DNA of 64,000 nucleotides from Nocardioides luteus (lineage in GTDB: Bacteria > Actinomycetota > Actinomycetes > Propionibacteriales > Nocardioidaceae). This document shows positions 2,762 through 15,247 of the stretch, one piece after another. Below the pieces are notes generated by a model, which did not search any database, was not told where the DNA came from, and saw nothing but the letters and a program-made list of their open reading frames with translations. Every line of letters begins with the position of its first letter. Positions within the stretch are counted from its first letter, which is position 1. The translations under genes and the position numbers were made by a program. Where the stretch lies: NCBI RefSeq assembly GCF_000960475.2, contig NZ_JZDQ02000023.1, positions 1 to 64,000 of the forward strand. Direction: 5' to 3'.

Positions 2762-4309
2762 ATGAGCACGACCAGCCCAGACGAGATCAACGCCATGTCT
2801 CCTGCGATGCGACGGATCTTCTCTGTCCTCGCAGCAGTCGAACGAATCGGCAACAAGCTGCCGCACCCATTCTGGCTGTTCTGGATCCTCAGTGGAGTCC
2901 TCGCGGTGGCCAGCGCCGTCATGGCGGCCGCGAACGTGTCCGTGACCCTTCCCGGCACCGACGAGACCCAGCGAGTGCAGAACCTGCTGTCGCTGGACGG
3001 CCTCACCTACGCGCTCGACTCCGCGCTGGAGAACTTCGCCGGATTTCCACCGCTGCCCGTCGTGGTCACCGTGCTCATGGGCGTGGCGGTCGCCGAACGT
3101 AGCGGTCTGACCGAAGCGGTGCTGCGGGCAACCATCGTGCGGCTGCCGGCTCGATGGGTGACATTCGCCGTCGCGTTCGCCGGGACCGTGGCTCACGTGA
3201 CGTTCGACGCCGCGTTCGTCATCTTGATCCCCATGGCGGCGCTGGCATTCAAGGCGGCGGGACGGAACCCGGTCATCGGGGTGGTCACGGCGTACGTATC
3301 GATCTCCGCCGGATACAACGCCAGCCCACTGGTCACCCCCTCGGACGCGATCATCGGATCCCTGACCACCAGCGCCGCCCAGATCGTCGACCCGAACTAT
3401 GTGGTCACCCCGACGGCGAGCTACTTCTGGAACGCCGCCTCCTCCGTCCTGGTCGCGGTGGTGGTCACCGTGATGATCGAGTTCGTCCTCAACCGGCGCC
3501 CGGAGGCGGAGTCCGACGAACTGGCGGACGGCGAGCCGATGGATCTGACGCTGTCGTCCCGGGACCGGCGCGCGATGTGGCAGGCGCTCGCCGTCGGTGC
3601 CGCCATGCTGGCGGTCGCCTTCGCCATCACGTTGCCGCCCGGCTCGCCGCTGCGCGGGGAGTCCGGCACACTCTCGGAGTCGATCATCCTGCTCAACATG
3701 GCGGTCGTCGTCTCCCTGCTCTTCGCCACCATGGGGTTCGTCTACGGGCGGCAGACCGGATCGATCGCGTCGCTGGGTGACCTGCCGGGGCTGATGGCCG
3801 AAGGCGTACGTCTGATCGCGCCGATCGTCGTCCTGTTCTTCTCCATCTCCCAGTTCCTCGCCTACTTCTCCTGGACCGGTATCGGCTCGGTGGTCGCGGT
3901 CGACGGCGCAGCGCTGCTCGAGCGGCTGGATGCGCCGACGCTGGTGATCCTCGCGATCCTGGTGGTGGTGGTCAGTGCCGTGAACCTGATGGTCACGAGT
4001 GGATCGGCGATGTGGTCGCTGATCGCCCCGGTCGTGGTGCCGATGCTGATGTACGTCGACATCTCGCCGGAGGTGGCTCAGACGGTTTACCGCATCGGCG
4101 ACTCGTGCACGAACGCCGTCACCCCGATGAGCGCCTACTTCATCCTCGCGCTGGGATACATGCAGCAGTACCGGCGCAGCGCGGGCATCGGCACCCTGGC
4201 TTCCTACACGTTGCCGATCGCGTTGGTGCTGCTGGTGGTCTGGACGCTCTTCTTCGCGCTCTGGTACGCAGCTGGGATCCCGCTGGGACCCGGAGTCCCG
4301 GTTCGATGA
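2762..4309 (+). CDS. abgT: AbgT-family transporter
   Basis: A 515-residue integral membrane protein of the AbgT family, opening with the characteristic NKLPHPFWLFWILSG segment and carrying about a dozen hydrophobic spans. The re-entrant loop sequences YNASPLVTPSDAIIGS (about 180-196) and VTSGSAMWSLIAPVVVPM (about 415-432) are typical. AbgT of E. coli imports p-aminobenzoyl-glutamate; other members have been reported to export sulfonamides, so substrate and direction are not settled here. The ATG at 2762 has GGGAG seven bases upstream. It ends 14 bases from the convergent Lrp-type gene. Confidence 0.88.
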   Translation: MSTTSPDEINAMSPAMRRIFSVLAAVERIGNKLPHPFWLFWILSGVLAVASAVMAAANVSVTLPGTDETQRVQNLLSLDGLTYALDSALENFAGFPPLPVVVTVLMGVAVAERSGLTEAVLRATIVRLPARWVTFAVAFAGTVAHVTFDAAFVILIPMAALAFKAAGRNPVIGVVTAYVSISAGYNASPLVTPSDAIIGSLTTSAAQIVDPNYVVTPTASYFWNAASSVLVAVVVTVMIEFVLNRRPEAESDELADGEPMDLTLSSRDRRAMWQALAVGAAMLAVAFAITLPPGSPLRGESGTLSESIILLNMAVVVSLLFATMGFVYGRQTGSIASLGDLPGLMAEGVRLIAPIVVLFFSISQFLAYFSWTGIGSVVAVDGAALLERLDAPTLVILAILVVVVSAVNLMVTSGSAMWSLIAPVVVPMLMYVDISPEVAQTVYRIGDSCTNAVTPMSAYFILALGYMQQYRRSAGIGTLASYTLPIALVLLVVWTLFFALWYAAGIPLGPGVPVR

Positions 4310-4323
4310 CTCGGGTGACGGGA

Positions 4324-5325
4324 TCAGGTCGCATGGGCGCCGAGAGGCAGACGCACCCCGGAGCGCTTCATCGCCTCGAGGATGACCGAGATCTGCCGAC
4401 TCTGCACCATCTGACGCCATGGCGCGGTGTCGATCAGCTCGTAGAGGGAGGCCTGGTCCGCTACCGCGACGTTGATGGCCAGGTCGTACTCACCCGCCAG
4501 CGCACTCATCTGCCGCACTCGTGGCTCAGCGAGAACGTGCTTGACGAACGTGTCGAGGCGCCCCGGAAGGACACGTACCCAGATCATCGCCTCGAACGGG
4601 AAGCCCAGCAGGGCTGGTTCGACCACGGCCCGCGACCACACGCGACGGTTGACCAGGAGCCACTCCAGCCGTCGCCGGGCGGTCGACTCACTGATCCCGG
4701 CGCCTCGAGCGATCTCGGTGGTGCTCGCCCGACCATCTCGGCGCAGCACCTGGGTGATGGCGCGGTCGGTGGGCGTGAGGGGCTCCGGCTCGCTCCCATC
4801 GGGCTGCTGCAGACCGAAGGGTGGCGCCTCGAGCGCAGCGATCTGTGCCGGGGTCAGGATCGGCGGGCGCCATTGACGTACGGACCGGAGGATGCGCAGA
4901 ACGGGGTCGGCGTGTGCCCTTGCCAGACCGACCGTGGCGGGCAGTTCGTCGAGTACGAGCCGGGGCAGGTTCGCAGTGCTCACCCTGATCTCGGCGACAC
5001 AGTCGACCCGGCCGGTGAGGGCGTATGCGAACACGCAGTCGGGGCGCTGCGCCAACGCCGTCGCCGTGCTCCGCACGGCGCCGACCGCGCACTCGGCTCG
5101 CACCATCACGGCGGCGTTGTGACCATCGAGGCTGGATATCTGGATCACCCGCTTGGCGAGGAGGTCGGTGCCACGCCTCGTGATGGTCCGCTCGGGTTCG
5201 TCCAGCACCTCGGCGATCCGTCTCCAGCTCACCCGCCCGTCGACCTGCATCGCCGCCACGATCTTGCGATCCAGCTCATCGAGCGGGGTCGCAAAGGGCG
5301 CAGGCACAGGCCCATTGTTCCCCAA
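4324..5325 (-). CDS. tandem Lrp/AsnC-family regulator, probable regulator of ACC deaminase
   Basis: A 333-residue protein made of two Lrp/AsnC units in one chain. The first helix-turn-helix is at about 16-60 (LDRKIVAAMQVDGRVSWRRI), with a degenerate ligand domain after it. The second is at about 182-230 (TDRAITQVLRRDGRASTTEI), with a second ligand domain to the end. Usual Lrp proteins are about 150 residues. The TTG start is supported by AAGGA eight bases upstream. It is divergent from acdS with only 53 bases between. Lrp-type AcdR regulating acdS is known in proteobacteria; the same role here is inference, and the duplicated architecture differs from AcdR. Confidence 0.85.
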   Translation of the reverse strand: MGNNGPVPAPFATPLDELDRKIVAAMQVDGRVSWRRIAEVLDEPERTITRRGTDLLAKRVIQISSLDGHNAAVMVRAECAVGAVRSTATALAQRPDCVFAYALTGRVDCVAEIRVSTANLPRLVLDELPATVGLARAHADPVLRILRSVRQWRPPILTPAQIAALEAPPFGLQQPDGSEPEPLTPTDRAITQVLRRDGRASTTEIARGAGISESTARRRLEWLLVNRRVWSRAVVEPALLGFPFEAMIWVRVLPGRLDTFVKHVLAEPRVRQMSALAGEYDLAINVAVADQASLYELIDTAPWRQMVQSRQISVILEAMKRSGVRLPLGAHAT

Positions 5326-5378
5326 GAGTTATTTCCTTCGTATGACCTCAGCTCAATCACTCACCGAGAGGAACCATC

Positions 5379-6386
5379 ATGTCGCTCGACGACTTCGACC
5401 GCTATCCGCTGCTGTTCGGCCCCAGCCCGATCCACCGGCTCGACCGGCTGACCAAGCACCTGGGCGGCGCACAGATCTGGGCCAAGCGCGAGGACTGCAA
5501 CTCCGGGCTCGCCTACGGCGGTAACAAGACCCGCAAGCTGGAGTACATCGTCCCGGATGCTCTCGCCAGTGGGGCGGACACGCTGGTGTCGATCGGCGGG
5601 TACCAGTCCAACCACACCCGCCAGGTGGCCGCGGTAGCCGCGAAACTCGGGCTCAAGGCCCGGCTGGTTCAGGAGAAGTGGGTGGACTGGCCCGACGTCA
5701 CGAACGACCGGGTCGGCAACATCATGCTCTCCCGGATCATGGGAGCCGACGTACGACTGGACGCGAGCGGCTTCGACATCGGCATCAGGGACTCCTGGGA
5801 ACAGGCGATGAAGGACGTACGCGACGCCGGCGGTACGCCGTACGGCATCCCCGCCGGCGCCTCCGAGCACCCGCTCGGCGGTCTCGGCTTCGCCAACTGG
5901 GCACGCGAGGTCGAGGAGCAGGAGGCCGAGCTCGGCGTCTTCTTCGACACCATCGTCGTCTGCACCGTCACCGGGTCGACCCATGCCGGGATGATCGCCG
6001 GGTTCGCCGGGCAGGATCGCCCGCGGCGGATCATCGGCATCGACGCCTCGGCCACGCTCGAGAAGACCCGCGCCCAGGTCGAGCGGATCGCACGGCACAC
6101 GGCCGAGCTGATCGGCCTCGGCCGCGACCTGCGCGACGACGAGATCACCGTCCTCGATGGCTGGGCCGGCGACCTCTACGGGATCCCGGTCGAGTCGACC
6201 ATCGACGCGATCCGGCTCTCGGGGGAACTCGAGGGCATGATCATCGACCCCGTGTACGAGGGCAAGTCGATGGCCGGACTGATCGACCTCGTCACCCAGG
6301 GTGAGATCGGGTCCGATTCGACGGTGCTCTACGCCCACCTCGGTGGGCAGCCGGCCCTCAACGCCTACGCTGGACTCTTCTCGTGA
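5379..6386 (+). CDS. acdS: 1-aminocyclopropane-1-carboxylate deaminase
   Basis: A 335-residue PLP enzyme that opens the ring of ACC, the plant ethylene precursor, to 2-oxobutyrate and ammonia. The PLP lysine is Lys50 in [11 protein letters not shown] and the proton-abstraction serine is Ser77 in [10 protein letters not shown]. The residues that separate true ACC deaminases from D-cysteine desulfhydrases are present: Glu294 in DPVYEGKS and Leu321 in [13 protein letters not shown], matching Glu295 and Leu322 of the Pseudomonas enzyme. The start has GAGAGGAA upstream. It is followed after 40 bases by an E1-like dehydrogenase that could take its keto-acid product. Confidence 0.93.
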
Positions 6387-6426
6387 TCAGGCGGGGTAAA
6401 CGCCAGGCCAGGCCCAGGGAGATCGC

Positions 6427-8775
6427 ATGACCGATGCCGATGTCGTCCGCACGACCGTCCCGACGAGCTCGCCGGAGACGATCGCCGCGCTCCGAGCAGT
6501 GGCACAACGCGTCCGCTGGCTCGCCACCGCGATCGTGGACGCGGCGAACCGTGGCCGTCCCAACCGGACCGGCGTCAAGGTCGGCGGACACCCGGCCTCC
6601 TGTGCCTCGATCGTCGAGATCATGGTCGCGCTCTGGTTCCACGAGCTCACCCGTCACGATCGGGTGTCGGTCAAGCCTCATGCTTCTCCGGTGCTGCACG
6701 CGATCAACTATCTGCTGGGAGACCTCGACGAGACCTACCTGCCGACCCTGCGGGCCAAAGGCGGCTTGCAGAGCTACCCCAGCCGGCTGAAGGACCCGGA
6801 CACCGTGGACTTCTCCACCGGCTCCGTGGGCATCGGCGCGACCGCAGCGCTGTGGGCGGCGATGTCGCATCGCTACCTTCGGTCGCACGTCGACACCGCG
6901 CCCGAGGCCGGTCGTTTCATCAGCCTGCTCGGTGACGCCGAGCTCGACGAGGGAGCGGTCTGGGAAGCGATCGCCGACCCCGCGGTCTCCCGCCTGGGCG
7001 AGCTGATGTGGGTGGTCGACCTGAACCGCCAGTCCCTCGACCGAGTGATCCCCGACATCCAGATCGAACGACTCCAGGGGATGTTCGCGGCTGCGGGATG
7101 GCAGGTCGTCACCCTCAAATGGGGACAGTCGATCTCGCGGCTGTTCGAGCAACCGGGCGGCGCCGACCTGCGTGCTCGTCTCGAACAGATGCCGAACGAG
7201 GAGTATCAGCGCATGCTGCGTGTGGACGGCTCCGAGGTCGGCGCACGCATCGTCGCCTCCGGGGCGAGCAGAGAGCTCCAGGACCTCGTCGATCGAACCG
7301 CTCCCGACGAACTCGCCGAGGCTGTTCGCGACCTGGGTGGCCACGACCTTCCGCAGCTGATCGAGACCTTCGGCTCCCTCGACACTCATCGGCCGAGCGT
7401 GGTGTTCGCGTACACGATCAAGGGGCGAGGGCTCCCGACGGAGGGACATCCCAACAACCACTCGGCGCTCCTCACCGAGTCCCAGATGTCTACGCTCGCG
7501 GAGAGCACGGGCAGCAGCGTCGAGGATCCGTGGCGACGCCTGGCGCCCGGATCAGAGGCAGCGGAGCTCTGTGCCCGGCGCGCCGCCGCGCTTCGCCGCA
7601 GCCCGCACCAGGCAGCGCCGGCCCTACCGGTCCCACCCTCGCTGGGTCACCCCTACCGCAAGCCGATCTCCACCCAGGCGGCGTTGGGAAGGTTGCTGGC
7701 CGATCTCCCACGCGATGCTCCTCTGGCGGCAGCACGGGTCGTGACCTGCAGCCCCGACGTCGCCTCCTCGACGAACCTCGGTGGATGGATCAACAAGACC
7801 GGCGTCTGGTCGGTCGAGGACCGGCGCGACTGGTTCGCCGATGATGCGGAGCGAGTCCTCAAATGGTCGGAGGTGACCAGCGGCCGCCACATCGAGCTCG
7901 GGATCGCGGAGGTCAATCTGGTCGGCCTCCTGGGTGAGCTCGGGACGACCTGGAGCCGTTGGGGCGAGCGCCTCATCCCGATCGCCACTCTCTACGACCC
8001 CTTCGTCTCCCGGGCCCTCGAACCCTGGTCCTACGGCATCTACGCCGGGGCGCAATCCATCCTGGTGGGTACGCCCTCGGGGGTCACGCTCGCTCCCGAA
8101 GGCGGAGCTCATCAGTCCATCACCACCCCGTCGATCGGCCTGGAGCAGCCTGGTTGTGTCGCCTGGGAGCCATGCTTTCCCCAGGATCTGGAGTGGACGT
8201 TCCTGCACGCAATGAGCCAGGTCGGCATCGCCGGCGGAACCTCAGCGTACTTCCGTCTCTCCACGCGTCCCATCGATCCGGCTGCAGCGTCGCTTCCTGA
8301 CGACCCCGATCTGCTCGAACGCCGCCGCCGTCAGGCGATCGCCGGAGGCTACCGACTCTCCGGCCATGATCCCCGAATCGAGGACGTCACGCTCGTCGGT
8401 GTCGGGGCGATCATGCCTGAGGTCGTGCGCGCCGCTGAGATCCTGGCCGATCAGGGTGTGGTGGCAGGAGTCGTCTGCCTGACGAGTCCCGACCTGGTGT
8501 TCCGTTCTCTCCAGCAGCGCGCGCGTCGAAACCCTGGAGAGGGCGGCAACATCATCGACGACCTGTTTCCCGCGGCGGCGCCAGCGCCCTTGGTCACTGT
8601 CATGGACGGGCATCCCCACACGCTGTCGTTCTTGGCGGGAGCCCGCGGTGACCAGATCCGATGCCTGGGCGTCACCGAGTTCGGGCAGTCCTCCGACCTC
8701 GACGACGCCTATCGAATCCACGGGATCGACACAGCCTCGATCTTGGACGCGGCACTGTCGTTGGCGGGTCGATAG
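6427..8775 (+). CDS. transketolase-like / homodimeric 2-oxoacid dehydrogenase E1-like ThDP enzyme
   Basis: A 782-residue protein that resembles the single-chain E1 of pyruvate dehydrogenase (AceE) and transketolase. The ThDP-binding region begins GDAELDE (169-175) and ends at Asn200 in VVDLNRQSLD, which parallels AceE; the usual GDG is GDA. The C-terminal domain carries DGHPHTLSFLAGARG and GVTEFGQSSDLDDAY, close to the AceE C-terminus. It is shorter than AceE (about 890) and no E2 or E3 gene is nearby. It follows acdS in the same direction. Oxidation or transfer of 2-oxobutyrate is inference; the acceptor is unknown. GGGAG precedes the start. Confidence 0.8.
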   Translation: MTDADVVRTTVPTSSPETIAALRAVAQRVRWLATAIVDAANRGRPNRTGVKVGGHPASCASIVEIMVALWFHELTRHDRVSVKPHASPVLHAINYLLGDLDETYLPTLRAKGGLQSYPSRLKDPDTVDFSTGSVGIGATAALWAAMSHRYLRSHVDTAPEAGRFISLLGDAELDEGAVWEAIADPAVSRLGELMWVVDLNRQSLDRVIPDIQIERLQGMFAAAGWQVVTLKWGQSISRLFEQPGGADLRARLEQMPNEEYQRMLRVDGSEVGARIVASGASRELQDLVDRTAPDELAEAVRDLGGHDLPQLIETFGSLDTHRPSVVFAYTIKGRGLPTEGHPNNHSALLTESQMSTLAESTGSSVEDPWRRLAPGSEAAELCARRAAALRRSPHQAAPALPVPPSLGHPYRKPISTQAALGRLLADLPRDAPLAAARVVTCSPDVASSTNLGGWINKTGVWSVEDRRDWFADDAERVLKWSEVTSGRHIELGIAEVNLVGLLGELGTTWSRWGERLIPIATLYDPFVSRALEPWSYGIYAGAQSILVGTPSGVTLAPEGGAHQSITTPSIGLEQPGCVAWEPCFPQDLEWTFLHAMSQVGIAGGTSAYFRLSTRPIDPAAASLPDDPDLLERRRRQAIAGGYRLSGHDPRIEDVTLVGVGAIMPEVVRAAEILADQGVVAGVVCLTSPDLVFRSLQQRARRNPGEGGNIIDDLFPAAAPAPLVTVMDGHPHTLSFLAGARGDQIRCLGVTEFGQSSDLDDAYRIHGIDTASILDAALSLAGR

Positions 8776-8783
8776 CGGCAGAT

Positions 8784-8803
8784 GACGCCTCGAGCGGGCG
8801 TCA
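8784..8803. terminator. weak hairpin between convergent genes
   Basis: GACGCC at 8784-8789 pairs with GGCGTC at 8798-8803 around an eight-base loop, between the E1-like gene and mftR. There is no T-run and it reaches into the mftR stop codon, so termination is only possible. Confidence 0.3.
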
Positions 8804-9412
8804 GGCCGAGACGTACGAGCGCAGGTGCGCCATCGTGGCGTCGAGCAGGTGGGGGAGCGAGGCGTCCTCGTCGGCGAGCCATGCCTGGTAGGAGGTCAGC
8901 GCCAGGGCCAGGGCGACCTGGCCGACGGTCTGGGGGAGCAGGTCGTCGGGCCGCGTGCCGGTGCGCTCGGCGACGTACTCGGCGATGACCTCGCGCCAGC
9001 TCGCGTAGCGGAGCACGGAGTGGGCCTGGAGTGCCGGCGTGGTCAGGATCAGCCGCATCCGGTCGCGGTGGCTGGGGCTGGCGTCGGCGGGGAAGTCGTT
9101 GAAGGCGAGTACGCCGCGGTGGACCGCCTCGTGGAGCGGGAGGCCTTCGGGCATGGCGCGCAGGATCTCGCGGAAGCCGTCGAGGGTGCGGTCGAACTGT
9201 CCCCAGGGGATGTCGTTCTTGGACGGGTAGTAGCGGGTGATGGTGCGTCGGCCCACCCCGATCGCCTCGCCGATGTCGTCGAGGGTGGTGGCCTCGAAGC
9301 CTTTGGTCACGAAGAGCCGGAAGGCCGCCTGCTCGATCTCCGCGTGGGATGTCACCGCCGGGCGGCCGCGGAGCGAGCTGCGCGGCTTCGCATGGGCGGG
9401 CGTGGTCGGCAT
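8801..9412 (-). CDS. mftR: mycofactocin-system TetR-family regulator MftR
   Basis: A 203-residue TetR protein from the ATG at 9412 (a TTG three codons earlier is possible). The DNA-binding domain is at about 15-65, with TLDDIGEAIGVGRRTITRYYPSKND as turn and recognition helix, followed by PWGQFDRTLDGFREIL, a sequence typical of MftR. It is divergent from mftA. Known MftR of mycobacteria represses the mft genes and responds to long-chain acyl-CoA; that response is family knowledge, not seen here. Confidence 0.9.
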   Translation of the reverse strand: MPTTPAHAKPRSSLRGRPAVTSHAEIEQAAFRLFVTKGFEATTLDDIGEAIGVGRRTITRYYPSKNDIPWGQFDRTLDGFREILRAMPEGLPLHEAVHRGVLAFNDFPADASPSHRDRMRLILTTPALQAHSVLRYASWREVIAEYVAERTGTRPDDLLPQTVGQVALALALTSYQAWLADEDASLPHLLDATMAHLRSYVSA

Positions 9413-9539
9413 CCGTCGCAATCTATCAGGAGCCGCTTCGGCAAAGAGTGCATTGTTTCTGACGTCCTTCTATCTTTTTGACCCCGAGTGTCATTAATGT
9501 GGTGTGAGTCACTTCGGAGCGGAATGAAGGAGAGCTGTC
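9413..9539. promoter_or_regulatory. mftR-mftA divergent control region
   Basis: The 127-base gap between mftR and mftA must hold both promoters. It contains a CATTAATG palindrome (9492-9499) inside an imperfect repeat running from AGTGTC (9488) to GTCACT (9508-9513), a plausible MftR site about 30 bases before mftA. I do not see convincing -35 and -10 boxes. GAAGGAGAG precedes the mftA start. Confidence 0.4.
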
Positions 9540-9638
9540 ATGAACCCTGACGAGAACACCCAGGTCGTGGACGAGGCCCTGACCGAGGAGTCGCTGATCG
9601 AGGAGGTCTCGATCGACGGCATGTGCGGCGTCTACTGA
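9540..9638 (+). CDS. mftA: mycofactocin precursor peptide MftA
   Basis: A 32-residue peptide beginning MNPDENTQVVDEALTEESL and ending IDGMCGVY. The C-terminal Val-Tyr pair is the part that the radical SAM enzyme MftC decarboxylates and crosslinks, and MftE then releases, giving the mycofactocin redox cofactor; the acidic N-terminus is the leader. IDGMCGVY is the family signature. GGAGAG lies upstream, and the stop is one base from the mftB start, so the two are translationally linked. This gene is easily missed because of its length. Confidence 0.96.
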   Translation: MNPDENTQVVDEALTEESLIEEVSIDGMCGVY

Positions 9639-9639
9639 G

Positions 9640-9927
9640 ATGACTGCCGTGAGCCTGGACAGCGCGTGGGCGCTGTCGCCGTCGGTGGCGCTGCGTCCCG
9701 AGCCGTTCGGGGCGCTGGCCTACCACTTCGGGAACCGGAAGCTGACCTTCCTCAAGCGTCCCGAGCTGGTGGCGGTCGTGCGTGCTCTGGAGTCGCACCC
9801 GGACGTACGCGGTGCGCTCGTGGCATCGGGGGTGCCGGAGGGCCAGCACGCTGCGTACGTCGCTGCGCTCTCCGGCCTCGCCCGGACCGACATGATCCGA
9901 CCCGTCGGGCAGGGAGCGAGACGATGA
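9640..9927 (+). CDS. mftB: mycofactocin peptide chaperone MftB (RRE protein)
   Basis: A 95-residue protein of the RiPP recognition element type that binds the MftA leader and presents it to MftC. Visible family features are the opening SAWALSPSVALRPEPFGALAYHFGNRKLTFLK and a helical second half. It starts one base after the mftA stop and overlaps mftC by an ATGA junction, as in other mycofactocin operons. Confidence 0.92.
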   Translation: MTAVSLDSAWALSPSVALRPEPFGALAYHFGNRKLTFLKRPELVAVVRALESHPDVRGALVASGVPEGQHAAYVAALSGLARTDMIRPVGQGARR

Positions 9928-11135
9928 AGCTGGTGGAGCACTTCGAGCTCGGCCTGGATGCGCCGATCTGCCTGACCTGGGAGCTGACGTACGCGTGCAA
10001 CCTGGAGTGTGCGCACTGCCTGTCGAGCAGCGGCCGGCGCGACCCGCGTGAGCTGAGCACCGAGCAGTGCGAGGCGGTGATCGACGAGCTGCAGCGGATG
10101 CAGGTCTTCTACGTGAACATCGGCGGTGGCGAGCCGACGGTGCGCCCCGACTTCTGGCACCTGGTCGAGTACGCCGTGGCCCACGACGTGGGGGTGAAGT
10201 TCTCCACCAACGGTGTCCGGCTGACTCCGGAGCGGGCGCGGTGGCTGGCCGCGAGCGACTACGTCGACGTCCAGATCTCCCTCGACGGTGCCACCGCCGA
10301 GGTCAACGACCGGGTGCGGGGGACCGGGTCGTACGACACCGCGATCACCGCGCTGCGCAACCTGCACGAGGCGGGGTTCCGCGACGCCAAGCTCAGCGTG
10401 GTCTGCACCCGGGAGAACATCGGGCAGCTGGATGAGTTCAAGGCGATCGCGGACCGGTTCGGGGCGACGCTGCGGTTGACCCGGCTGCGTCCCTCGGGCC
10501 GCGGTGCGGATGTGTGGGACGAGCTGCACCCGTTGCCGGAGCAGCAGCGGGAGCTCTACGACTGGCTGGTCGCGAACGGCGACAACGTGCTCACCGGGGA
10601 CTCCTTCTTCCATCTGGCTGCCTTCGGTCCTGAGGACGGCAGCGGGGCGCTGCCCGGGCTGAATCTGTGTGGCGCTGGTCGGGTGGTGTGCCTGATCGAC
10701 CCGGTCGGCGACGTCTACGCCTGTCCGTTCGCGATCCACGACCAGTTCCTGGCGGGCAACGTGCTCACCGACGGCGGCTTCGACAACGTCTGGAAGACCT
10801 CGAGCCTCTTCCAGGAGCTGCGCGAGCCGCAGACCGGTGGCGCCTGCTCGGGCTGTGCCCACTACGACTCCTGCCGGGGCGGCTGCATGGCGGCGAAGTT
10901 CTTCACCGGCCTGCCGCTGGACGGGCCCGACCCGGAGTGTGTCCAGGGCTACGGCGAGACCGCGCTGGCGGGTGCCCGGACCATCCCCGCGGTCGGCCAG
11001 GACCACTCGCGCAGCGCGCCGAGCCGCAACGCACCGGTGCTGCTCACCCTCTCCCGGCGCCGGCCCGATGCCGAGCTGGTCCCTCCGGTGAGTGCATGCG
11101 CCGAGTCGCCCCTGGCCGGCTTCGCCCCGAACTGA
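9924..11135 (+). CDS. mftC: mycofactocin radical SAM maturase MftC
   Basis: A 403-residue radical SAM/SPASM protein. The SAM cluster motif is Cys25-x3-Cys29-x2-Cys32 in YACNLECAHC, followed by NIGGGEPTVRPD. The C-terminal SPASM region carries the auxiliary-cluster cysteines, including CGAGRVVCLID, YACPF, and CSGCAHYDSCRGGC. MftC performs oxidative decarboxylation of the MftA C-terminal tyrosine and then forms the Val-Tyr crosslink. The ATG at 9924 overlaps the mftB stop; longer in-frame extensions upstream are shadow sequence. Confidence 0.95.
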   Translation: MKLVEHFELGLDAPICLTWELTYACNLECAHCLSSSGRRDPRELSTEQCEAVIDELQRMQVFYVNIGGGEPTVRPDFWHLVEYAVAHDVGVKFSTNGVRLTPERARWLAASDYVDVQISLDGATAEVNDRVRGTGSYDTAITALRNLHEAGFRDAKLSVVCTRENIGQLDEFKAIADRFGATLRLTRLRPSGRGADVWDELHPLPEQQRELYDWLVANGDNVLTGDSFFHLAAFGPEDGSGALPGLNLCGAGRVVCLIDPVGDVYACPFAIHDQFLAGNVLTDGGFDNVWKTSSLFQELREPQTGGACSGCAHYDSCRGGCMAAKFFTGLPLDGPDPECVQGYGETALAGARTIPAVGQDHSRSAPSRNAPVLLTLSRRRPDAELVPPVSACAESPLAGFAPN

Positions 11136-11164
11136 ACGAACCCCTGACAGAAGCGAGAACGAAG

Positions 11165-12391
11165 ATGCCCTGGAAGAACCCGTGGAAGCAGAATCCGTGG
11201 TTCGAGTCCGTCGCGGTGGCGCAGGAGCGTGCCCGCAAGCGACTCCCGAAGCCTGTGTACGCAGCGTTGCTGGCCGGCTCCGAGCGCGGCCAGACGATCG
11301 CGGACAACCAGCAGGCCTTCGCCGACCTCGGGCTCGCGCCGCATGTGGCCGGCCATCACGACAAGCGTGAGCTGTCGACCACGGTGCTGGGCCAGGAGAT
11401 CGGGTTCCCGGTGATCATCTCGCCCACCGGCGTACAGGCCGTGCATCCGGACGGCGAGGTCGCGGTCGCGCGGGCGGCGGCGGCCCGGGGGACCGTGATG
11501 GGGTTGTCGAACTTCGCCTCGAAGCCGGTCGAGGAGGTCGTGGCGGCCAACCCGGCGACCTTCTTCCAGATGTACTGGACCGGTGACCGGGAGGTGATGA
11601 TCCGCCGGATGCGCCGCGCGCACGCCGCCGGCGCGAAGGCGCTGATCGCGACCCTGGACTGGTCCTTCTCGATGGGTCGTGACTGGGGCAGCCCGGAGAT
11701 CCCGGAGAAGGTCGATCTCTCCGCGATGCTCAGGTTCGCGCCGCAGGTGATGAGCCGGGGGAGATGGCTGGCGGCGTACGCCCGCAGCGGCGGCATCCCG
11801 GACCTGACCGCGCCCAACCTGGCCCCGATCGCCGACGACGGCAGCCTGGGGGAGCCGCCCACGTTCTTCGGCGCCTACTACGAGTGGATGACCACGCCGC
11901 CGCCGTCGTGGGACGACGTGGCCTGGATGGCGGCGACCTGGAAGGAGCTGAGCGGCGGTAAGCCGTTCATGCTCAAGGGCGTCTGTCGGGTCGACGACGC
12001 GCTGCGGGCGGTCGACGCGGGCGTGGACGCGATCTCGGTCTCCAACCACGGCGGCAACAACCTCGACGGCACCCCGGCCACGATCCGGGTGCTGCCCCCG
12101 ATCGCCACCGCCGTGGGCGACCAGATCGAGGTCCTCCTCGACGGTGGCGTACGCCGCGGCTCCGACGTCGCCAAGGCACTCGCCCTGGGCGCCCGTGCCG
12201 TGATGATCGGCCGGGCCTACCTGTGGGGCCTGGGCGCCAACGGCCAGGCCGGCGTCGAGAACGTCCTCGACATCCTCCGCAACGGCCTCGACTCCGCCGT
12301 GCTCGGCATGGGCAAGGCCTCCGTCCACGAGCTCAGCCCCGAGGACCTGGTGATCCCAGACGGTTTCGAGCTGACCTTGGGCCGGCCGTGA
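11165..12391 (+). CDS. mftD: mycofactocin FMN-dependent dehydrogenase MftD
   Basis: A 408-residue flavoprotein of the L-lactate dehydrogenase/2-hydroxyacid oxidase family. MftD oxidatively deaminates the cyclised AHDP intermediate to the alpha-keto amide that gives mycofactocin its redox activity. The catalytic histidine region is ISVSNHGGNNLDG, with Asn where most family members have Arg, and the FMN phosphate loop is seen in LLDGGVRRGSDVAKALALGA. The start ATG at 11165 is followed by a tryptophan-rich PWKNPWKQNPWF segment. It overlaps mftE by a GTGA junction. Confidence 0.93.
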   Translation: MPWKNPWKQNPWFESVAVAQERARKRLPKPVYAALLAGSERGQTIADNQQAFADLGLAPHVAGHHDKRELSTTVLGQEIGFPVIISPTGVQAVHPDGEVAVARAAAARGTVMGLSNFASKPVEEVVAANPATFFQMYWTGDREVMIRRMRRAHAAGAKALIATLDWSFSMGRDWGSPEIPEKVDLSAMLRFAPQVMSRGRWLAAYARSGGIPDLTAPNLAPIADDGSLGEPPTFFGAYYEWMTTPPPSWDDVAWMAATWKELSGGKPFMLKGVCRVDDALRAVDAGVDAISVSNHGGNNLDGTPATIRVLPPIATAVGDQIEVLLDGGVRRGSDVAKALALGARAVMIGRAYLWGLGANGQAGVENVLDILRNGLDSAVLGMGKASVHELSPEDLVIPDGFELTLGRP

Positions 12392-13059
12392 GCCTCGTCG
12401 ACCGTCCCTGGCCGGAGATCGTGCCGGGCGGCACGGTCCTGGTGCCGGTGGGCTCCACCGAGCAGCACGGCCCCCACCTGCCTCTCGACGTCGACACGGT
12501 GATCGCGACCGCGGTGGCCGACGAGCTCGCCCCGCTCATCGGCGCCTCCGTCGCACCGGCCGTGCCGATCGGCGCCAGCGGCGAGCATCAGTCGTTCCCC
12601 GGGACCATCTCGATCGGGACCGACGCCCTGACGACCGTGCTCGTCGAGCTCGGCCGCTCGCTGACCACCTGGGCCTCCCGGGTCGTCCTCGTCAACGGTC
12701 ACGGCGGCAACCTGGACGCGCTGACCGCCGCCGTCACGATCCTCCGCGCCGAGGGTCGCGACGTCACTTGGGTGCCCTGCCAGGCTCCCGGCGCCGACCC
12801 GCACGCCGGCCGCACCGAGACCTCGCTCATGCTGCACCTGGCCCCCGAACGGGTACGCCTGCGGCGGGCCATCCCGGGCAACACCCGCCCGATCGCCGAG
12901 CTGCTGCCGCGGATGCGGGCCGGCGGCGTCGAGGCCGTCTCGGCCAACGGTGTGCTCGGTGACCCGACCGGCGCGAGCGCCGAGCACGGCAAGCACGTCC
13001 TCGAGGCGATGGTCGGCGGCGCCTACGACCGGCTCCGGATCGGCGCGGTGGCGCCATGA
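12388..13059 (+). CDS. mftE: mycofactocin peptidase MftE (creatininase family)
   Basis: A 223-residue creatininase-family metallopeptidase that releases the crosslinked C-terminal dipeptide from MftA. Metal ligands are visible in GSTEQHGPHLPLDVD (Glu, His, Asp) and NGHGGN. The GTG at 12388 overlaps the mftD stop, and the gene overlaps the following SDR gene by ATGA. Confidence 0.92.
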   Translation: MSLVDRPWPEIVPGGTVLVPVGSTEQHGPHLPLDVDTVIATAVADELAPLIGASVAPAVPIGASGEHQSFPGTISIGTDALTTVLVELGRSLTTWASRVVLVNGHGGNLDALTAAVTILRAEGRDVTWVPCQAPGADPHAGRTETSLMLHLAPERVRLRRAIPGNTRPIAELLPRMRAGGVEAVSANGVLGDPTGASAEHGKHVLEAMVGGAYDRLRIGAVAP

Positions 13060-13850
13060 GTGCGGAGGCAGCGACCCGGGTCGCACTGGTGACCGGCGCG
13101 GCTCGCGGGATCGGCGCGGCCACCGTGCGCGGCCTGGTGGCCGAGGGCGTACGCGTCGTCGCGCTGGACTGGTGCGCCGGCGAGGACTCACTGGCGGGCT
13201 ACGCCCAGGCCACGAAGGCCGACCTGGACACCCTGGTCGCCTCGCTCCCGGCCGGGTGGGTGGAACCGGTCGTGGGTGACGTACGCGACCCGGCGGCGCT
13301 GGCCACCGCGGTCGGTGCCGCGACCAACAGGTGGGGCCGGCTCGACATCGCCGTCGCCGCCGCCGCGGTGATCGCCGGAGGCCGCCCGCTGTGGGAGGAC
13401 ACCTCGCTCGACCTGCAGTGGCAGATCGACGTCGCCGGGGTCTGGAACACCGCCGCGGCCGTCGTCCCCGTGATGCTCGCCGGACCGGATCCCAGCGGCT
13501 GCCGGTTCGTCGCGCTGGCCTCCGCCGCGGGGTCACGCGGGCTGTTCCATCTCGCCGCCTACAACGCCGCCAAGCATGCCGTGGTCGGCCTGGTGAAGGG
13601 CCTGGCCGCCGACCTCGCCGGGACCGGGGTCACCGCCTGCGCCGTCTCACCGGGCTCCACCGACACCGCGATGCTGGCCGCGACCGCCGGCCTCTACGAC
13701 GTCACCCCCGACGACCTCGCCGCCCACCAGCTCCTGCGTCGCCCGCTCACCCCCGAGGAGGTCGCCGCCACCGTCGTCCACGCCTGCTCCCGGGCGGGCG
13801 CCGTGCTCAACGGCTCGGACGTCGCCGCCGACGGAGGCTTCGGCGGATGA
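13056..13850 (+). CDS. SDR-family dehydrogenase, probably mycofactocin-coupled
   Basis: A 264-residue short-chain dehydrogenase with the cofactor motif TGAARGIGAAT (about 10-20), a region around 30-60 longer than in plain SDRs, and the catalytic Ser and Tyr-x3-Lys (ASAAGSRG; YNAAKHAVVG). The usual NNAG is AVAAAA. It sits inside the operon between mftE and mftF with ATGA overlaps on both sides. Mycofactocin-associated SDRs keep NAD(H) tightly bound and pass electrons to mycofactocin; this role is inferred from position, and the alcohol substrate is unknown. Confidence 0.85.
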   Translation: MSAEAATRVALVTGAARGIGAATVRGLVAEGVRVVALDWCAGEDSLAGYAQATKADLDTLVASLPAGWVEPVVGDVRDPAALATAVGAATNRWGRLDIAVAAAAVIAGGRPLWEDTSLDLQWQIDVAGVWNTAAAVVPVMLAGPDPSGCRFVALASAAGSRGLFHLAAYNAAKHAVVGLVKGLAADLAGTGVTACAVSPGSTDTAMLAATAGLYDVTPDDLAAHQLLRRPLTPEEVAATVVHACSRAGAVLNGSDVAADGGFGG

Positions 13851-15247
13851 CCGTGCTGCCCGACGGGTTCACGGTGCGGGTACGCGACGACGTACGCCTC
13901 CTCCCGACGCCCGACGGCGGCCTGTCGCTGATCGGCGGCTCCCCGCTGCGATCCATGCGCCTCACGCCGGCCGCCGCCGGCCACGTCAACGACCGGGAGG
14001 TGCGGGTCGGCGATGCGACCACCGACCTCATCGCCCGCCGCCTGCTCGACGGCAACCTCGCCGACCCCGTGGATCTGGCGCCGGTCGACCCGGCCGAGCT
14101 CACCGCCGTCGTCCCGGCCCACGACCGCCCCGAACACCTCGACCGCTGCCTGGCCGCCCTCGACGGCCTCAGCGTCATCGTCGTCGACGACGCCTCCCGC
14201 GACCCGGCCGCCATCACAGAGGTCGTACGCCGCCACCGCGCCACCCTCCTCACGCTGTCCGACAACCGCGGACCCGCCGGCGCCCGCAACGCCGGCCTCG
14301 CCAAGGTCACCACCCCCTACGTCGCCTTCGTCGACTCCGACGTCGCCGCCGACCCCACGATGCTCGCGCAGCTGGCCGGCCAGCTCGCCGACCCTCGGGT
14401 CGCGCTGGCGGGGCCGCTGGTCCGAGGACACACCGACAAGGCTCGACCGGCCTGGTTCGAGCGCCACGACGTGGCCGCCTCCTCGCTCTCGCTCGGCGCG
14501 AGGGCCTGCTCGGTCCGCCCCGGCGCAGCCGTCGGCTGGCTCCCGTCTGCCTGCCTCGTCGCCCGCAGCGCCACGCTGAGACAGGTCGGCGGCTTCGCCG
14601 ACGACCTGCGCGTCGGCGAGGACGTCGACCTGGTCTGGCGACTGGTCGAGGCCGGACACGTGGTCCGCTACGAACCCGAGCTGGAGGCCGGACACGAGGT
14701 CCGCGGCACCGTCCGCGGCTGGCTCGGCCGCAAGCTCGTCTACGGCACCGGCGGCGCCGAGCTCGGCCGCCGCCACGGCGACGCGATCGCCCCGGCCGTA
14801 CTCTCCCCGGCCATGGCCGCCGCCGGGGCCGCGATCCTCGCCGGCCGCTGGTGGTCGGCGCCCGCGGCGCTCGCCTCGCTGGTCTGGGGGAGTCGTGCCG
14901 TCGAGACGGCGCTCCCGGACGTACCCGGCCGCACCGGCCTCGCCCTCCGGCTCGCCACCCGAGGACTCGGCTGGTCACTGCGCCAGGAGTCAGCCCTCCT
15001 GCTGCGCCACTGGTGGCCGGTCACGCTGGTGGCCTGCATGCTCAGCCGCACCGTACGCCGCATGACCCTCGGCGCCCTCGTCGTCGACACGGCCGTCGCG
15101 TTCCAGGAGACCGAGGTCCGGCCCGCCACCCTGCTCGGCCGCCGCCTGGACGACCTCGCCTACGGAACCGGCCTCTGGCTCGGCGCCACGAGAAGCCGTT
15201 CCGGGCGATGTCTCGCCCCGCGGCTCGTGCGCCGGATACCCCGATAG
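13847..15247 (+). CDS. mftF: mycofactocin glycosyltransferase MftF
   Basis: A 466-residue protein with a GT2 glycosyltransferase domain at about 85-300: TAVVPAHDRPEHLDRCL, VIVVDDASRD, DNRGPAGARNAGL, the metal-binding FVDSDVAAD, and GEDVDLVWRL. Hydrophobic segments near the C-terminus suggest membrane association. MftF adds a beta-1,4-glucose chain to mycofactocin. It is the last gene of the operon; no mftG (GMC-type oxidoreductase) follows. Confidence 0.93.
   Translation: MTVLPDGFTVRVRDDVRLLPTPDGGLSLIGGSPLRSMRLTPAAAGHVNDREVRVGDATTDLIARRLLDGNLADPVDLAPVDPAELTAVVPAHDRPEHLDRCLAALDGLSVIVVDDASRDPAAITEVVRRHRATLLTLSDNRGPAGARNAGLAKVTTPYVAFVDSDVAADPTMLAQLAGQLADPRVALAGPLVRGHTDKARPAWFERHDVAASSLSLGARACSVRPGAAVGWLPSACLVARSATLRQVGGFADDLRVGEDVDLVWRLVEAGHVVRYEPELEAGHEVRGTVRGWLGRKLVYGTGGAELGRRHGDAIAPAVLSPAMAAAGAAILAGRWWSAPAALASLVWGSRAVETALPDVPGRTGLALRLATRGLGWSLRQESALLLRHWWPVTLVACMLSRTVRRMTLGALVVDTAVAFQETEVRPATLLGRRLDDLAYGTGLWLGATRSRSGRCLAPRLVRRIPR

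Follow-up and report, generated by a model that had tools for sequence, protein, structure and literature searches.

The first 64,000 nucleotides of contig NZ_JZDQ02000023.1 of Nocardioides luteus (GCF_000960475.2; positions 1–64,000, hereafter the window) carry acdS, a gene for 1-aminocyclopropane-1-carboxylate (ACC) deaminase (5379–6386, + strand), next to a gene whose product resembles the E1 component of pyruvate dehydrogenase, and the pairing of these two genes is the subject of this study. The second gene (6427–8775, + strand) starts 40 bp past the acdS stop codon and encodes a short AceE-type thiamine diphosphate (ThDP) E1 of 782 amino acids, assigned by its AceE fold and residue set. 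Divergent from acdS lies a tandem Lrp/AsnC regulator (4324–5325, − strand), in which PF13404 matches two stretches and PF01037 one. All three genes are open frames with family matches.

AcdS scores 542.5 bits against TIGR01274 (cut-off 392) and is homologous along its full length to the ACC deaminase chain 1rqx (460 bits). Alignment to 1rqx places E294 and L321 at E295 and L322 of the Pseudomonas numbering, in agreement with the Glu and Leu pointed out in the initial annotation; passages of the acdS survey of 2014 describe Glu295 and Leu322 as markers of ACC deaminases (PMC4048297). Across 54 distinct AcdS sequences the Leu occurs in all 54 and the Tyr-Glu in 53, the motif not being found in one. 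By both the model and the marker residues, the AcdS of the window is a true ACC deaminase with a predicted activity.

The E1-like protein aligns through residues 16–777 with residues 72–853 of Escherichia coli AceE, and a profile of 49 sequences gives 233 bits to AceE versus 103 bits to the best transketolase. Its AlphaFold2 model (mean pLDDT 80.9) finds the E. coli pyruvate dehydrogenase E1 as the best fold match, with a Z of 38.4 over 711 residues and residues 8–782 superposed on AceE 66–858; transketolase folds reach a Z of up to 34.5. The protein nevertheless falls below the cut-offs of both E1 models, with 206.7 bits against TIGR03186 (cut-off 1408.3) and 204.8 bits against TIGR00759 (cut-off 859.9). 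All 49 members of the profile match TIGR00759, the score being available for the window protein only. A separate, proper AceE is encoded on another stretch of the genome and shares 28% identity with the E1-like protein.

The residues of the active site are conserved throughout the family. Equivalents of AceE His106, His142, Tyr177, Asp230, Asn260, Lys392, His407, Glu571, Tyr599 and His640, which we take to have catalytic or ThDP-binding roles, are kept in 109 of 109 members, namely the 110 distinct sequences minus the incomplete L080; the Ser109 equivalent was not relied on. The His of the AceE loop, presumably used in lipoyl transfer, has its equivalent in all 109. Four other AceE positions are changed alike in every member: Gly231 to Ala (GDGE to GDAE), Gln140 to Lys, Asn258 to Asp and Glu522 to Val, corresponding to A171, K83, D198 and V445 of the window E1. 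The GDAE noticed at the outset is thus a family-wide feature, and its invariance rules it out as the mark of an altered or dead enzyme. Since the catalytic residues are kept and the four substitutions are shared by all, these proteins constitute a distinct and coherent subfamily, which occurs in Actinomycetota and Alphaproteobacteria.

The window E1 also lacks the N-terminal region of AceE, because no part of the model aligns ahead of AceE residue 66 and only 9 in-frame codons lie 5′ of the start. The upstream in-frame room is below 60 codons in 55 of 110 members and is not decisive for the other 55. We take the missing region to be the E2-binding part of AceE. One relative (G122, C1:1148755–1151054) has its E1-like gene in two reading frames, which points to a disrupted gene or to an error in the sequence.

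The genes found beside the E1 relatives suggest a substrate. The collection holds 125 E1-like sequences, 110 of them distinct, and is biased by fetches centred on acdS, hence counts were made on 80 named loci, the best 80 of 236 relatives, in which remote members are under-sampled. One of these loci, L088, is partial and unlabelled, and two acdS-linked loci, L096 and L099, were merged as near-identical in the set of distinct sequences. In 13 of the 80 loci acdS lies directly upstream of the E1 gene on the same strand, in Nocardioides, Kribbella, Arthrobacter, Homoserinimonas, Brevibacterium, Kocuria and the marine strain PHSC20C1. A methionine-gamma-lyase-like gene is found beside E1 in another 12 of 80. 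ACC deaminase and methionine gamma-lyase have 2-oxobutyrate as their common product. The main argument for 2-oxobutyrate as the E1 substrate is therefore that both recurring partner enzymes yield it. The initial annotation had arrived at the same substrate and had made its proposal depend on a conserved linkage with acdS; the survey of neighbouring genes supports the substrate as the likely one and bears out the linkage.

Other features of the linkage are consistent with a functional pairing. For instance, in Kribbella turkmenica acdS overlaps E1, and E1 overlaps the tandem Lrp gene, by 4 bp each (with starts set mechanically), and one genome groups acdS, Lrp, lyase and E1 at a single locus. 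On the Ruegeria pomeroyi megaplasmid (L158) the order is Lrp, methionine gamma-lyase and the E1-like gene. A table of transcript responses in PMC9870897 gives megL SPOA0318 the value 28.9, in a column whose header lies outside the part of the source seen; SPOA0318 would correspond to the Ruegeria lyase gene beside the E1-like gene. An Lrp gene is the sole partner in 11 of 80 loci. On a quick E1 tree of the 110 distinct members and AceE, in which long branches are flagged and the acdS-centred fetches are included, the minimum number of changes is 9 for the acdS label and 6 for the lyase label, so that the pairing with acdS has been gained or lost repeatedly.

Taking these observations together, we propose that AcdS and the adjacent E1 would form a catabolic module in which the E1 belongs to a 2-oxobutyrate dehydrogenase, a reading to which we assign a probability of about 0.72. 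AcdS would convert ACC to 2-oxobutyrate and ammonia. The E1 would decarboxylate 2-oxobutyrate on ThDP and pass the propionyl group to the lipoyl domain of an E2, which with E3 and NAD would produce propionyl-CoA. The basis of the proposal lies in the sequences, namely the two enzyme families, their repeated linkage, and the genes for lipoyl E2 and lipoyl synthase that adjoin E1 in some relatives; the substrate and product of the E1 and its use of a shared E2 are inferred. A dedicated use of 2-oxobutyrate is likely, and AcdS and E1 are presumably expressed from one operon.

The E2 of such a complex would have to come from elsewhere in the genome. No E2 or E3 gene was found near the window E1, as the initial annotation had remarked, and the E2-type and lipoamide dehydrogenase matches of the genome lie on other contigs. 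There are only three E2-type genes (on C16, C2 and C37), none close to E1. That of C37 forms a fusion with an E1 of the 2-oxoglutarate dehydrogenase type, and that of C2 has in its vicinity an E1 alpha gene, which we take to be of branched-chain type. Since the genome has no private E2 for the window E1, the enzyme would share an E2 with another complex, probably pyruvate dehydrogenase.

Among the relatives, a lipoyl E2 adjoins the E1 gene in Aeromicrobium endophyticum (two loci) and a Solirubrobacterales metagenome-assembled genome, and also on plasmids of Rhodococcus R79, YC-JH2, R85 and BAA870 and in Novosphingobium. The plasmid of R79, which comes from apple rhizosphere, carries acdS, lipoyl synthase (lipA), RidA, E1 and E2 in that order. 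A downstream gene at L100 had been considered as an E3; it was E3-like by size only and is a cytochrome P450, so the upstream E2 alone counts. Six E2s of Rhodococcus and Aeromicrobium each combine a single lipoyl domain with a single catalytic domain, and Pfam recognises no E3-binding domain in them (L161 9354–10475, L162 9331–10476, L168 9323–10444, L169 9370–10518, L042 10283–11350 and L053 10303–11403). The E3-binding domain is present in the E2s of Novosphingobium and Solirubrobacterales and in the main E2 of the N. luteus genome. The loss of this domain from E2 and the loss of the N-terminal region from E1 may be matched.

Several observations weigh against the proposed 2-oxobutyrate dehydrogenase module. 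The window offers no cognate lipoyl E2 or E3 alongside E1, and an E2 stands beside E1 in only 3 of 80 loci. It does so in a minority, 5 of 12, of the annotated plasmid regions, namely those of Novosphingobium and of Rhodococcus R79, YC-JH2, R85 and BAA870; in the gene table used for these regions, which is incomplete, no E2 was found beside E1 in the other 7 (Ruegeria, Cereibacter, Azospirillum, Arthrobacter NicSoilE8, Mycobacterium avium, Shinella and Rhodococcus BX2). Two of the substitutions shared by the family, of AceE Glu522 by Val and of Gln140 by Lys, also count here. A recognised partner is absent in 27 of 80 loci (1 further locus being partial), a CoA-transferase III gene is the partner in 10, where an aldehyde dehydrogenase follows at a distance of about 1 kb, and an aldehyde dehydrogenase adjoins E1 in 3. 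Two actinobacterial lyases that were scanned reached 329.7 and 298.3 bits versus the methionine gamma-lyase cut-off of 549.7. Within the 391 genomes of the order, AcdS is present in 92, E1 in 40 and both in 16, and the adjacent pair was found in 7 of the 92 acdS genomes when coordinates were compared by eye; E1 is carried by 6 of 40 acdS-centred stretches, which were hand-picked from genomes with AcdS matches. The dedicated ACC catabolic unit of a supposedly plant-associated strain, as first suggested, thus stands as a recurrent acdS–E1 pair and not as a general companion of acdS, and acdS-linked E1 members also come from the marine strain and from Brevibacterium.

Other activities of the E1-like protein have to be weighed against this. 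The CoA-transferase and aldehyde dehydrogenase partners make other substrates or an aldehyde product possible. The protein could instead decarboxylate 2-oxo acids non-oxidatively, or be a ThDP enzyme whose acceptor is not a lipoyl group; 2-oxobutyrate would then be turned into propanal for an aldehyde dehydrogenase. The absence of E2 near the window E1 and beside most relatives, the aldehyde dehydrogenase genes (next to E1 in L063, L065 and L113, and about 1 kb away in the CoA-transferase group), and the Val at the position of AceE Glu522 would fit such an enzyme. Nevertheless, lipoyl E2 genes stand beside E1 relatives in both Actinomycetota and Alphaproteobacteria, lipoyl synthase is encoded in the R79 cluster, and the loop His is invariant, which together make this alternative unlikely. 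The non-lipoyl acceptor raised in the initial annotation is unlikely on the same grounds, and the E2 and lipA genes beside some relatives speak against it.

It is improbable that the E1 acts on a different 2-oxo acid, or that the window AcdS works mainly on another substrate. The partners of E1 do vary, from CoA-transferase III and aldehyde dehydrogenase to a threonine-synthase-like gene (L090) or none, yet 2-oxobutyrate is the product common to the two recurring partners, and AcdS passes both the ACC deaminase model and the residue markers. That the protein is of transketolase type, with sugar phosphates as substrates and acdS as an incidental neighbour, seems very improbable. Transketolase is a frequent name in annotations of the family: 138 plasmid records match at an E of 1e-30, a limit that true AceE may pass too, and of the 40 among the matches listed (39–59% identity) 26 bear the name of transketolase or of pyruvate dehydrogenase, transketolase accounting for 21, while 12 are unannotated and 2 have other names. 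The N-terminal part of the window protein also matches human transketolase 6rjb with 82.8 bits, and transketolase folds come near in Z. The full-length profile and the fold, however, both favour AceE, and the transketolase model TIGR00232 gives 47.4 bits against a cut-off of 682. The repeated pairing with producers of 2-oxobutyrate and the lipoyl E2 genes beside some relatives likewise speak for the dehydrogenase E1.

The CoA-transferase III gene belongs to a recurring context of CoA-transferase III, E1, an AraC-type regulator and aldehyde dehydrogenase, seen in L037, L043, L066–L069, L073, L075, L077 and L078.

The regulator was described at the outset as two Lrp units in one chain, and this description holds. 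Two AsnC-type helix-turn-helix (HTH) stretches and one ligand domain are recognised by Pfam, as the Lrp/AsnC family demands, the first ligand domain being missed; the predicted fold (3 sequences, mean pLDDT 65.7, low confidence) shows HTH plus an alpha/beta domain twice. The protein probably senses an amino acid. It may control the amidase gene described below as much as acdS: the tandem Lrp accompanies amidase relatives that have no acdS, and the regulator would thus follow the amidase.

The catabolic unit appears to exceed 4324–8775, since an amidase and an AbgT transporter are linked to it in a few lineages. In the window the amidase-signature hydrolase lies at 1131–2609 on the − strand (PF01425, 331.4 bits, cut-off 27) and the AbgT-family transporter at 2762–4309 on the + strand (PF03806, 440.1 bits, cut-off 27). 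Relatives of the amidase lie near acdS–E1 in Kribbella (L076, 69% identity), Arthrobacter mangrovi (L085, 57%), G307 (L134, 68%) and Rhodococcus R79 (48%), and in these four the tandem Lrp comes with them, cut at the end of the stretch in G307. Orthologues of the transporter with at least 74% identity were found in 3 of the 391 genomes, one of them N. luteus, and in every case acdS or E1 lies less than 2 kb away. The next tier, to which a paralogue from the same genome belongs, does not exceed 54%, and the AbgT linked to acdS–E1 in A. mangrovi, at 56%, is close to that tier. In Rhodococcus R79 an Nramp-type transporter may substitute for AbgT. Only 1 of the 40 acdS-centred stretches holds both amidase and AbgT.

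AbgT scores 372 bits against TIGR00819 (cut-off 753.55) and falls outside that subfamily; the amidase scores 95 bits against malonamidase E2, and urethanases and GatA score higher. Amidase homologues outside the unit were surveyed in 17 stretches (15 of 27 non-own genomes and two plasmids), none of which contained an acdS or E1 match. A tandem Lrp lies within 2 kb of the homologue in 9 of the 17, in two of them at only 25–29% identity. These pairs of amidase and tandem Lrp without acdS nearby are actinobacterial (L181, L182, L184–L186, L191 and L195–L197). Because amidase and tandem Lrp recur without acdS, the amidase need not be specific for ACC.

In plants ACC is kept in store in the form of its malonyl, gamma-glutamyl and jasmonoyl amides, and hydrolysis of malonyl-ACC is reported there, the enzyme behind it not being known (PMC4227472). 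Speculatively, the amidase would release ACC from an amide, and AbgT is proposed to import the substrate or its conjugate. The five genes might then encode a pathway for conjugated ACC: an amide, for example N-malonyl-ACC, would enter through AbgT and be cleaved to ACC by the amidase, AcdS would open the ring, and the 2-oxobutyrate would be oxidised by the short E1. This is a tentative idea that we consider rather doubtful. If amidase and AbgT do handle ACC conjugates, bacteria could tap the stored ACC of the plant, and a bacterial route into the store of an ethylene precursor would feed an uncharacterised E1 family in which a number of the actinobacterial E2 partners are without the E3-binding domain.

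Just downstream of the E1 gene, and convergent with it, lies a mycofactocin cluster (8801–15247) with NCBIfam matches to MftR, MftB, MftC, MftD, MftE, a coupled SDR and MftF. A 32-amino-acid peptide at 9540–9638 is taken to be MftA-like, judged by its C-terminal motif.

Our study suggests that the likely next enzyme after ACC deaminase is encoded directly downstream of it in several genera. It offers a substrate hypothesis for a wide family often annotated as transketolase or pyruvate dehydrogenase, and it points to a slimmed dehydrogenase complex, with an E1 without its N-terminal region and an E2 without the E3-binding domain.

The closest known system is mdeA-mdeB-mdeR of Pseudomonas putida, taken to encode methionine gamma-lyase, a 2-oxobutyrate E1 of the TIGR03186 type (MdeB) and an Lrp-type regulator. 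The window likewise has a 2-oxobutyrate-making pyridoxal phosphate (PLP) enzyme beside an AceE-type E1 and a regulator of the Lrp family. Its E1, however, is short (782 residues), lacks the AceE N-terminal region and falls outside TIGR03186 by score, and the producer is AcdS in place of MdeA, so that the methionine gamma-lyase neighbour of the MdeB type is not found there. AceE (TIGR00759) is similar in fold and catalytic residues, whereas the window E1 stays below the TIGR00759 cut-off, aligns from AceE residue 66 and has its own four-residue signature. E. coli AbgT-AbgAB, presumably serving the use of p-aminobenzoyl-glutamate, also places an AbgT transporter beside an amide hydrolase, but the hydrolase of the window is of the amidase-signature type and is coupled to acdS. 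GntR genes (acd-AR) are described beside actinobacterial acdS in passages of the 2014 survey (PMC4048297), and a GntR gene lies near acdS in 19 of the 40 acdS-centred stretches. The window AcdS shares the Glu and Leu of these enzymes; its gene, in contrast, has no GntR match beside it and is linked to E1, amidase and AbgT instead. The main text of that survey nowhere uses the word "dehydrogenase" (PMC4048297). Among the matches listed, no title or abstract start names an acdS–E1 unit, in a search that most subscription journals lie outside. A 2-oxobutyrate-producing PLP enzyme with a dedicated E1 is thus a known arrangement, and the variant presented here has AcdS as the producer and an E1 outside TIGR03186.

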